Shown here: in pieces, positions 30,568-33,974 of the stretch
How the letters are laid out: each line of letters opens with the position of its first letter
Position numbering within the stretch: position 1 is the stretch's first letter
Source of the DNA: Brevinematia bacterium
Lineage (GTDB): Bacteria; Spirochaetota; Brevinematia; DTOW01
DNA length: 42,169 bases
Assembly: GCA_039630355.1 (NCBI GenBank)
Contig: JBCNVF010000063.1
Coordinates: forward strand, 1-42,169
Direction: 5' to 3'
The notes under the pieces: model-generated
What the model saw: only the letters and a program-made list of their open reading frames with translations
Databases searched by the model: none
What the model was told of the DNA's origin: nothing
Made by a program: the position numbers and the translations under genes

Positions 30568-31701
30568 ATGGTAGAGGTAAGAGTTTGCAAAAACCCCAAT
30601 GAGTTTATAAAGGTTGCTTTCTATGTTCAAGGTAATAATCCTAATTGGACTCCTCCACTGATCATGGATATAAGAAAAAAGCTTGACAGAAGAAGGTCAT
30701 CTTTTCTTAAGCACAACGAAGCAGAATTTTTTATAGCCTATAAGAACGGTAAACCTGTTGGCAGGATCTCAGCTATAAAAAACAACATTCACAATGAAAG
30801 ATACAAAAAGAAAGATGGCTTTTTTGGCTTTTTCGAGAGTATAGATGATCAAGAAGTTGCAAACGCTCTTTTTGACAAAGCTATTGAGTGGTTAAAAAGC
30901 AAAGGACTAGACACAGTATATGGTCCCGCAAATTACTCAACGAATGATGAGTGGGGACTACTGGTTGAAGGATTTGATAGCCCTTCGTTTGTAATGATGC
31001 CTTACAATCCCGAATACTACAAGCACCTTATTGAGAATTATGGCTTCAAGAAAGCTAAGGACCTTTATGCATGGTATTACGACCCTACTTTGCCGATAGA
31101 TGAAAAACTTCTAAACCTAGCAGAAAAAATCCTAAAAAGGGGCAATTTCAGAGTAAGATACGCAAACTTAAAAGACATTCATAATGAAGTAGAGAGGATA
31201 GTGGAGATATACCATGATAGTTGGTCTGAGAATTATATGTTCATTCCCGTTACTGAGGAAGAGAAGAAGGAGATAGGCGAGTTTCTTGGCTCAATAGCAT
31301 ATCCAGACATGGTGGTGATAATTGAGAATGACAAAGGTGAGGCTGTAGCATTTTCTGTAGCAGTGCATAACCTAAACGAAGTGTTAATAAAATATAGAAC
31401 CTCAAATCTCTTCTTGCTCAATATTCAGCAGATGCTAGCTTTGGCATATAGGCTCTACATTAAACCCAAAAACAAGTTTGAAACAGGTAGATTACTGTTA
31501 GCAGGCGTTAAAAAGGATTACAGAAGATTAGGACTGGACCTAATACTCTATATCCAGACATACCAAAACGCAACCAAAAGAGGATACAAGTATGGAGAGC
31601 TATCTTGGACTCTGGAGGATAACAGACTCATCAACGAAGGAATTGAAAAAATGGGAGGAAGGATCCACAAAATATACAGAGTATATTCTAAGGAGATCTA
31701 A
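30568..31701 (+). CDS. GNAT-family N-acyltransferase-like protein
   Basis: 377-residue protein of the conserved bacterial type with an N-terminal half reading FYVQGNNPNWTPPLIMDIRK, then EAEFFIAYKNGKPVGRISAI, typical of a GNAT strand-loop region, and YGPANYSTNDEWGLLVEGFD. The C-terminal half has a second GNAT-like segment (GRLLLAGVKKDYRRLGLDLI), where the acyl-CoA pyrophosphate loop would lie. The substrate is unknown. GAGGT precedes the ATG. Its last four bases overlap the convergent outer-membrane protein gene. Confidence 0.8.
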   Translation: MVEVRVCKNPNEFIKVAFYVQGNNPNWTPPLIMDIRKKLDRRRSSFLKHNEAEFFIAYKNGKPVGRISAIKNNIHNERYKKKDGFFGFFESIDDQEVANALFDKAIEWLKSKGLDTVYGPANYSTNDEWGLLVEGFDSPSFVMMPYNPEYYKHLIENYGFKKAKDLYAWYYDPTLPIDEKLLNLAEKILKRGNFRVRYANLKDIHNEVERIVEIYHDSWSENYMFIPVTEEEKKEIGEFLGSIAYPDMVVIIENDKGEAVAFSVAVHNLNEVLIKYRTSNLFLLNIQQMLALAYRLYIKPKNKFETGRLLLAGVKKDYRRLGLDLILYIQTYQNATKRGYKYGELSWTLEDNRLINEGIEKMGGRIHKIYRVYSKEI

Positions 31702-32582
31702 AAACTTGCTCCTAATCCCAAACCAACTACAGTATTACTACTACCTACAAACATTACTTCTACCGGGAGTAGTAGTTGGAAATACTGAGTATCTATCAAG
31801 ATTTCTAAACCGCTTGCAAGGAAATAAGAGCTCCGCAAGGCAAAAAAGCCACCCATTCCTAACTTTAGTTCTAACCAACCAAACGGTTCATAACTAATCC
31901 CGTATCCACCCACGAAACCCAACCAAGCTCTACCTAAGTAAAAGGTAAAATTACCTCTGTTGAACAATCTAGCCCTTACTCCAGAAATAAACATAGGATA
32001 GAAATTCAAAAAATCATAACACAAACCTATACTCAAAAGAAATCTGACTTTCCTATCTACCTCACTTTCGGATGTAACATTATTGACTGAAACATTGGTA
32101 ATACTGTTTGTGAAATAGTTTGTTACAAAGTTAGTGAAGCCAACAAAGTTAGTTATAACTTTCAAAACTTCGTTAGTTATTGATACATAATTTGTGATAA
32201 ACACAATACTTTGGTCTGGAATTAAAGTTTTAAGACGCACTTCCTTTACTTGAGATCTTCTAACAATATGCTCCCCAAAGGCAGTTTTCACTATTATTCC
32301 TTCTTTCGTCTCACCTACTTCCACTCCCTTAACCCTTTTACCGTTTAATTGAACTTCAACAACTTTATCAGATACAAACTCTATCACACCTACTTGCTTT
32401 TCATCTATACTCACAGTCCTACCATCCTCCGTTCTAAAAACTAAAGTATTACTCTCCTTTGATAGTACCTTTCCCTTCAAAACCTCATCATTCTTAAGAA
32501 TTATGACATCACAAATCCCTTGTAAATTTGCAAAAAAACTTACGAAAAGGAAACTAGTAAGAGTACTTAATCTTCTCAACAT
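31698..32582 (-). CDS. Putative outer-membrane protein with two small beta repeats and a Thr-Asn-rich linker
   Basis: A signal peptide (RRLSTLTSFLFVSFFANLQG) leads into two copies of a 47-residue motif: CDVIILKNDEVLKGKVLSKE at 23-69 and VVEVQLNGKRVKGVEVGETK at 72-117. Next is a linker with seven Thr-Asn pairs (ITNYVSITNEVLKVITN and onward, about 125-165). The last 120 residues look like beta strands of a small barrel (FTFYLGRAWLGFVGGYGISY) and end in phenylalanine, as many outer-membrane barrels do. The start overlaps the anti-sigma gene by 29 bp. The first motif also occurs at the end of the anti-sigma protein, so the three-gene operon is probably one signalling unit. Family not recognised. 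Confidence 0.65.
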   Translation of the reverse strand: MLRRLSTLTSFLFVSFFANLQGICDVIILKNDEVLKGKVLSKESNTLVFRTEDGRTVSIDEKQVGVIEFVSDKVVEVQLNGKRVKGVEVGETKEGIIVKTAFGEHIVRRSQVKEVRLKTLIPDQSIVFITNYVSITNEVLKVITNFVGFTNFVTNYFTNSITNVSVNNVTSESEVDRKVRFLLSIGLCYDFLNFYPMFISGVRARLFNRGNFTFYLGRAWLGFVGGYGISYEPFGWLELKLGMGGFFALRSSYFLASGLEILIDTQYFQLLLPVEVMFVGSSNTVVGLGLGASF

Positions 32583-33324
32583 CCTTTTTGTAAAACTCCC
32601 TTATTCCCCCATCTGTCTCAAAAATTATAACATCTTCCTTTATTCCTATCAAGTTCCCCTCTATTTCTCTACCATCCTTAAGGAAGATTACATTTCTATA
32701 CTTCTTGCCAAAAGCCACTGGCTTAATTTCCCTACCATCTACAAATAACTTTCCTCCACTTATTGTTGCCTTCACCTGCGCTGTTTGGAATCTATACTCT
32801 TGGTTACCAATTACTAGGACTACCCCACTCACACCAGAATCCGGAAAAACATAGACCCTACCTCTATCAATCTTAGGAAGATATACAAAAATTGTGTTAC
32901 TTTCCTCCTTAAGCTTTACTCCCTCAACTTTGTGATGAGTCGCAATTTTCACAATATTGTTCCCTACAGAAAAAGAAGTAGTTTGAAAACTCATCTCCTC
33001 AGTTGTAAAGAAAAAGAATATTGAAAACATCACTATCACAAGAAAAGACAATGCAACACCTAAAGCATACTTTATCAGATTCACTCTGCTAAATTTTTCG
33101 GAAATAGTTACTCTATTCCCAATCTTACCAAGTGTTTTCATCTCTCTGAACTTTAACAAAACACTCTCTTTCACCTTTGAATCTATTATCCCAATTATAC
33201 TATTATCTACCTGAATATTCACTGACTCATACAGCTTCCTACACTGCTCACAACTTCTTATATGCTCCATTCTTTTCTCATCAAGTTCTGACAATAACAT
33301 TTCTTCCAAAGTCACATGCCTCAT
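32554..33324 (-). CDS. Transmembrane zinc-finger anti-sigma factor
   Basis: The N-terminus has the ZAS motif HxxxCxxC (His21, Cys25, Cys28 in HIRSCEQCRKLY), which binds the partner sigma factor. A single membrane segment follows at about 84-107 (YALGVALSFLVIVMFSIFFF). The external part of about 150 residues has FecR-like beta strands (GRVYVFPDSGVSGVVLVIG) and ends in a short motif, RNVIFLKDGREIEGNLIGIK, that recurs in the next gene product. The start overlaps the end of the sigma gene by 4 bp (ATGA). It should hold the sigma factor inactive until an envelope signal releases it. Confidence 0.82.
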   Translation of the reverse strand: MRHVTLEEMLLSELDEKRMEHIRSCEQCRKLYESVNIQVDNSIIGIIDSKVKESVLLKFREMKTLGKIGNRVTISEKFSRVNLIKYALGVALSFLVIVMFSIFFFFTTEEMSFQTTSFSVGNNIVKIATHHKVEGVKLKEESNTIFVYLPKIDRGRVYVFPDSGVSGVVLVIGNQEYRFQTAQVKATISGGKLFVDGREIKPVAFGKKYRNVIFLKDGREIEGNLIGIKEDVIIFETDGGIREFYKKDVEKIKYSY

Positions 33325-33842
33325 ATATTCCCTCCTAACCCTAGTTTTGACTTTATCTCATTTATTGTTTTTTTCAAAATTCTCTTAATTGTCCTAGAAC
33401 TACAACTTTCCATTTCGGCAATTTCTTCTATTTTGTATCCTTCCAACCTAAGAAGGAGAATTTCTTTCTCCCTATCTGGTAGAGAATCCACAATGCACAT
33501 CATCTCTTCCTTCATGTTATCCCCATTAGACACACATCCACTGTTATAGGCTATTTCCTCAATAACTTTTCTCTCCCTTTTTTCTCTTCTTTTTCTGTCT
33601 CTAATTATATTCAAGGCTGTTTTAAAAATAAAGCTTTTGAAGCGACCCTTAGGTGAGTAAGTATTGATATTCTCTATAAACCTTACGAATGTCTCCTGAA
33701 CTACATCAATAGACATATCCACATCCCTCGTATACTTATACACAAAGCTAATAAGTGACTTGCTATATTTGTTATATAACTCAGCGAACGCATTCTCGTC
33801 TCCGCAGACTATTCGGTATATCAACTCTGCTTCGTTTTCCAT
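33321..33842 (-). CDS. ECF-type RNA polymerase sigma factor
   Basis: 173 residues with sigma region 2 (ENAFAELYNKYSKSLISFVY, then DVVQETFVRFIENI) and region 4 (LPDREKEILLLRLEGYKIEE, then SSRTIKRILKKTINEIKSKL), and no regions 1 or 3, as in extracytoplasmic-function sigma factors. It is the first gene of an operon with its anti-sigma factor and an outer-membrane protein. Upstream, TGAAAC and TAACAT at 17-bp spacing (minus strand, near 33850-33878) could be an autoregulated promoter, but I cannot tell. The regulon is unknown. Confidence 0.9.
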   Translation of the reverse strand: MENEAELIYRIVCGDENAFAELYNKYSKSLISFVYKYTRDVDMSIDVVQETFVRFIENINTYSPKGRFKSFIFKTALNIIRDRKRREKRERKVIEEIAYNSGCVSNGDNMKEEMMCIVDSLPDREKEILLLRLEGYKIEEIAEMESCSSRTIKRILKKTINEIKSKLGLGGNI

Positions 33843-33974
33843 AGTTGATATGTTAAAAGAAGTCTAACTACCGTTTCATTCATCCAAATTCTTCCAATCC
33901 ATATAATTTAACGGATTTAACCTAAAAATCGTGACAAAAAAAATAAATCTGCCTCCATAATAAAAAAATTAGGT

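Follow-up and report, generated by a model that had tools for sequence, protein, structure and literature searches.

Within the 42,169-nt window, meaning the whole stretch of DNA analysed, we identified three minus-strand genes in the order ECF sigma factor, putative anti-sigma factor and outer-membrane protein, the first two overlapping by 4 bp and the last two by 29 bp (Table 1). A sequence-only reading of this DNA had already placed the sigma gene first and described overlapping starts; its coordinates and overlaps proved right, and the three segments that it quoted are present in the anti-sigma and outer-membrane proteins. The domain matches and the 4-bp overlap indicate an ECF sigma factor encoded together with its regulator, as in FecI/FecR/FecA, and the sigma factor is 65-68% identical to its counterparts in two other genomes of the genus (G002 and G003). 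A 377-aa acetyltransferase-like gene (30568-31701) is convergent with the unit in the window and at L003, L004 and L114, and adjoins the locus in all genus genomes read, including one without the unit (G001).

Table 1. Features of the three-gene unit and its upstream DNA (positions in the window; residues are those of the encoding protein)
Feature	Position	Strand	Basis or remark
Predicted ECF-type promoter, GTCAC-N17-CGTTA	33909..33935	-	66 bp before sigma start codon
ECF sigma factor, 173 aa	33321..33842	-	Pfam Sigma70_r2 3e-14, Sigma70_r4_2 2e-10; TIGR02937 5e-25
Putative anti-sigma factor, 256 aa, with a short cytoplasmic part, a single TM helix and a periplasmic part	32554..33324	-	Overlaps and follows sigma gene; Foldseek 4m0n
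HxxxCxxC zinc anti-sigma-like motif, HIRSCEQC, residues 21-28	33241..33264	-	Sequence
Transmembrane helix, residues 84-106	33007..33075	-	Hydrophobic run; helix 80-107 in model
Juxtamembrane all-beta periplasmic region, residues 107-208	32701..33006	-	Ten predicted strands, pLDDT about 80
C-terminal domain DC, predicted Sm/Hfq-like, residues 209-255	32560..32700	-	NF047433 1.2e-5; model; Foldseek
Outer-membrane protein, 294 aa	31698..32582	-	Signal peptide, then D1 and D2, TN-repeat linker and C-terminal beta region
Signal peptide	32517..32582	-	Sequence; helix 2-20 in model
Domain D1, residues 23-70	32373..32516	-	NF047433 3e-8; hhalign to DC 98.5%
Domain D2, residues 71-118	32229..32372	-	hhalign to DC 96.4%, to D1 97.3%
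TN-repeat linker (TNYVSITNEVL...TNFVTNYFTNSITN)	32043..32228	-	Sequence; similar runs in other genus envelope proteins
Probable small outer-membrane beta-barrel, residues 181-294	31701..32042	-	Fastest-changing part; terminal F

A small domain shared by the two envelope proteins

We refer to the C-terminal domain of the anti-sigma protein as DC and to the tandem N-terminal domains of the outer-membrane protein as D1 and D2, each about 46 residues long. BLASTP between the two proteins found no similarity (E=11), and Pfam searches of both returned just sub-threshold SH3-like and PH matches. In pairwise alignment, DC against D1 outscored all 2000 shuffles and DC against D2 reached p=0.03, while D1 against D2 was not significant (p=0.5). 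The NCBIfam model NF047433 (Lepto_7_Nterm) matched D1 with 33.3 bits and DC with 24.9 bits, and its curated cut-off of 43 bits was missed by both proteins; by their sequence, the window copies are homologous to Lepto_7_Nterm but divergent from it. When phylum-wide sets of each domain were compared with hhalign, the probabilities were 98.5% for DC-D1 (3e-15), 96.4% for DC-D2 (1e-9) and 97.3% for D1-D2 (2e-11). These profile tests reject chance similarity; DC, D1 and D2 are homologous at the level of sequence profiles, which bears out the earlier proposal of a shared small domain. A search of the whole 1.75-Mb genome with NF047433 gave confident matches solely in the anti-sigma and outer-membrane genes, with D2 at E=0.09 and one extra weak match (0.4) in a 27-aa frame, so by this search the three domains are the only credible copies in the genome.

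The 256-aa protein, given its gene's position behind the sigma gene, would act as the anti-sigma factor. Two of the three genus members that carry the unit have the HxxxCxxC motif (HIINCKYC in G003), G002 being without it, and Pfam zf-HC2 did not match the window protein. Residues 107-208 occupy the position of the FecR domain of relatives; Pfam FecR left the window protein unmatched and matched 13 of the 16 sigma-adjacent relatives that carry DC. For the periplasmic part, an AlphaFold run without an alignment yielded a model good enough to use (pLDDT about 80); DC in it has five strands and a short helix preceding the last strand. In a Foldseek search against the PDB, the top 38 matches were all Hfq, with probability 1.00, rmsd mostly 1.1-1.5 A, TM-scores by target of 0.58-0.76 and E-values of only 5e-3 to 2e-2; rank 39 was the putative anti-sigma factor 4m0n (probability 0.91), a weak match. 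Sequence profiles of the domain also matched Sm-like proteins (RNase P Rpp29, 6e-4; the LSm domain of EDC3, 9e-4). DC is therefore predicted to be a five-stranded Sm barrel of the Sm/Hfq-like type. An STN subdomain at the C-terminus of the regulator was sought by model and Foldseek and was not found, the Sm/Hfq-like fold standing there instead. We also considered whether the Hfq-like domain binds RNA and rejected this as unlikely, because both carriers are exported and their domains would lie in the periplasm.

In each of the three unit-bearing genomes of the genus, the last residue of the outer-membrane protein's C-terminal beta region is F, and Pfam OMP_b-brl matches 2 of 12 relatives. Judging from sequence, residues 181-294 probably form a small outer-membrane beta-barrel, and the TN-repeat linker is a probable periplasmic stalk. 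Neither Pfam nor NCBIfam gave a TonB-receptor match for the 294-aa protein, and no TonB-dependent transducer with an N-terminal STN domain was recognized in it. Its AlphaFold model without an alignment was poor (pLDDT 36), with D1 showing the same strand order as DC. Unrelated folds among the three domains were thus looked for and not found, on the anti-sigma side by the model of DC and on the outer-membrane side by sequence profile. Runs of the TN-x-V/F repeat (TNYVxxTN) also serve as linkers in several other exported proteins of the genus (L119, L116 and L193), including a TPR/coiled-coil pair and a lipoprotein, and they are perhaps a lineage-specific periplasmic stalk.

Distribution and loss of the unit

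The three genes keep their order in G002 and G003, where they adjoin the same acetyltransferase-like gene. Within the genus, identity is 59-70% for DC and 50-60% for D1 and D2, compared with 24-38% for the cytoplasmic part of the anti-sigma protein, 25-32% for its mid-periplasmic part (21-50% overall outside DC) and 25-36% for the barrel, so that conservation in both proteins is highest in the three domains. In G001 (same genus, 84% complete) we found no anti-sigma gene and no sigma gene, the best sigma match, at 31%, being a paralogue; a 30-aa barrel remnant followed by stop codons lies in the syntenic place. The unit has been lost in this genome, its components having decayed together. Full units of sigma, DC protein and D-barrel protein recur in three other spirochaete families, represented by G048 (two units), G157 and G132. 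A lack of conservation of the three-gene order, which would have spoken against the envelope-sensing interpretation, was looked for and did not appear.

Proteins related to the anti-sigma family NF047528 occur in 95 of 393 Spirochaetota genomes, and at the loci examined most end in a DC-type domain. Among 35 loci with FecR-type proteins ending in the domain, picked by score and not by neighbourhood and counted irrespective of the relatedness of their genomes, the immediate neighbour carries the domain in 22, against 2 of 30 control loci. Partners with tandem domains are enriched beside such proteins (14/20 vs 7/61, p=1e-6). At two loci (L095 and L098), genes for ankyrin-repeat and FecR-type proteins converge, both products having the domain at their C-terminus, and a 239-aa exported protein consisting of four tandem copies (L099:5414-6133) lies beside two FecR-type domain-ending proteins.

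The domain itself is common, being found in 106 of 296 spirochaete genomes with, among the matches listed, up to 20 per genome, and most of the proteins that bear it have no sigma or FecR neighbour. Many FecR-domain pairs have no sigma gene, and the FecR protein in these starts with a lipoprotein-like signal; the pairing is therefore broader than sigma control. This abundance, together with the variety of partners (barrels, FecR lipoproteins and ankyrin-repeat proteins), would suit a periplasmic module of general use whose ligand is a third party such as peptidoglycan, a lipoprotein or a polysaccharide, its carriers being co-located rather than mutually bound and the outer-membrane protein a co-regulated product rather than a sensor. 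We consider this unlikely, at roughly one chance in four, since the adjacency of domain carriers lies far above the base rate, the tandem architecture is enriched in paired partners, and the only confident copies in the genome sit in one operon, a better fit to a mutual pair than to a general anchor. The ease with which copies of the domain spread in the phylum could also make the shared domain a mere trace of neighbour-gene duplication with no functional link. That explanation is disfavoured and strikes us as very improbable, as such pairs turn up in many families, with partners that differ in architecture, and no part of either protein is better conserved than these domains.

Candidate promoter and surface regulon

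The pattern GWCAC-N17-CGTTW lies upstream of the sigma gene in the window, G002 and G003, its 17-bp spacer kept in upstream DNA that has otherwise diverged; the match is the only one in the window, where 0.12 would be expected. A stricter form, GTCAC-N17-CGTT, has five occurrences across the genome. Two fall inside other genes, and the remaining three precede the sigma operon, the gene for a 1500-residue Ig-like lipoprotein and that for a 183-residue barrel protein. In G002 and G003 the orthologues of the lipoprotein have this form 22-25 bp before their start, and the barrel orthologue in G003 (48% identical) has it 18 bp before its start, so that the barrel is conserved with its boxes in two genomes. 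The chance of one such gene triple across 1500 genes is about 4e-10 by a rough estimate that assumes independence. Promoter-like sites are not more numerous genome-wide than matches to the reversed control pattern, their placement alone being telling, and the pattern was accordingly rejected as a genome-wide regulon finder. It is absent from G001 and G004. In G004, a genome of the sister genus (82% complete) with no unit detected, a one-mismatch site, GTCGC-N17-CGTTT, precedes the lipoprotein orthologue, which leaves room for another sigma factor to read the site there. On sequence grounds, we predict a surface regulon that includes the giant Ig-like lipoprotein and the small barrel protein besides the sigma operon. 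The lipoprotein (Big_7, about 1500 residues; L191 at G000:C123:7282, L194, L187 and L204) occurs in four genomes as a single likely orthologue apiece and is a predicted sigma target in three.

Discussion

The unit resembles FecI-FecR-FecA, PupI-PupR-PupB and FoxI-FoxR-FoxA in combining an ECF sigma factor, a single-pass regulator and an outer-membrane partner, and, as in PupR/PupB and FoxR/FoxA, the sigma regulator ends in a domain of the kind that its outer-membrane partner carries at the N-terminus. PupR binds PupB through its C-terminal STN subdomain, a homologue of the signalling domain at the N-terminus of PupB (PMC7186176), and FoxR and FoxA are predicted to meet via STN domains (PMC11637429). 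In contrast to these systems, the docking domain at our locus would be Sm/Hfq-like rather than STN, the partner is a probable small barrel with two domain copies rather than a TonB-dependent transducer, and the regulator has no Pfam FecR match.

A closer parallel in gene content exists in Leptospira interrogans, where LIC12756 is the FecR-like anti-sigma factor of sigma factor LIC12757 (PMC12155086). The next locus number, LIC12758, belongs to a protein with a Lepto_7 N-terminal domain, and a link of this protein to both was proposed in 2026 from STRING, in a report that also notes that L. interrogans has no TonB-dependent receptor with a signalling extension (PMC13118517). Gene layout and FecR content differ from those of our unit, and the accessible part of that report contains no statement that the anti-sigma LIC12756 carries the domain too. 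The domain also appears in Leptospira family models: the last ~42 positions of NF047528 (LIMLP_03685 family anti-sigma, Leptospira) align with DC, this C-terminal domain being the only part that aligns well, and the window anti-sigma protein reaches 19 bits, the cut-off being 200. In NF047433 the domain is N-terminal behind a signal peptide, whereas the window copies are also C-terminal and tandem. The sequence-only reading had not recognized the arrangement as a described system; that is right in part, given the proposed LIC12756/LIC12757/LIC12758 link, and holds for the shared domain on the anti-sigma side as far as the accessible part of PMC13118517 goes.

We lean, with modest confidence, towards a form of cell-surface signalling like that of FecIR-FecA, in which paired Sm-like domains take the place of the STN pair and a small barrel stands in for the TonB-dependent receptor. 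The anti-sigma protein, whose periplasmic part ends in the small Sm/Hfq-like domain, would keep the ECF sigma factor at the inner membrane, and the outer-membrane barrel protein would display two copies of this domain on a periplasmic stalk. Edge-strand pairing is typical of Sm folds, which makes contact between like domains plausible. By analogy, direct contact of DC with D1 or D2 may occur, the domains docking probably via edge-strand pairing as in Sm-type and STN domains. A change at the outer membrane would alter this contact and expose the anti-sigma protein to periplasmic proteolysis, and the freed sigma factor would transcribe its own operon together with the genes for the giant Ig-like lipoprotein and the small barrel protein. 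Computation shows the domain homology, the predicted fold of DC, the gene order and its recurrence, the loss of the unit in one genome and the conserved promoter boxes; anti-sigma activity, the barrel, docking and proteolysis are inferences. Weighing against signalling of this kind are the frequency of the domain in spirochaetes, which may point to a general role, the many FecR-domain pairs without a sigma gene, the number of promoter-like sites, which is no higher than for the control pattern, the near-match site in G004, the low pLDDT of the outer-membrane model and the missing HxxxCxxC motif in G002.

Instead of being a receptor, the outer-membrane protein could be an output that acts back as a brake: it would accumulate while the sigma factor is active, and its domains would stabilize the anti-sigma protein and so end the response, the signal itself acting elsewhere. 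The outer-membrane gene is the last in an apparently autoregulated operon, and the partner domain of FoxA shields the anti-sigma factor FoxR from proteolysis until the signal arrives (PMC11637429). We nevertheless judge this improbable: the rapid change of the barrel, set beside the conservation of the docking domains, suggests an input that faces the surface, with which feedback would still be compatible. As for the original interpretation of the locus as an envelope-sensing unit, it gains from the shared domain, the kept gene order, the joint decay, the phylum-wide pairing and the PupR/PupB and FoxR/FoxA precedents, and it is too narrow insofar as the pairing extends beyond sigma signalling.

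More generally, and only tentatively, at somewhat below even chances, we propose that spirochaetes evolved a cell-surface signalling of their own, based on an extracytoplasmic Sm/Hfq-like docking code that serves gene control where an ECF sigma factor is present and envelope architecture where it is not. In such a code, which we hold to be possible to the same limited degree, the domains would pair FecR-type inner-membrane regulators or lipoproteins with outer-membrane proteins. In the work on LIC12756 and LIC12757, no TonB-dependent receptor was noted to carry the extension required for signalling to the FecR-like anti-sigma factor (PMC13118517); the shared domain names a candidate for this missing outer-membrane partner and a putative binding interface that is testable with small soluble domains. 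It would be an Sm-fold module acting outside the cytoplasm as a protein-protein connector.
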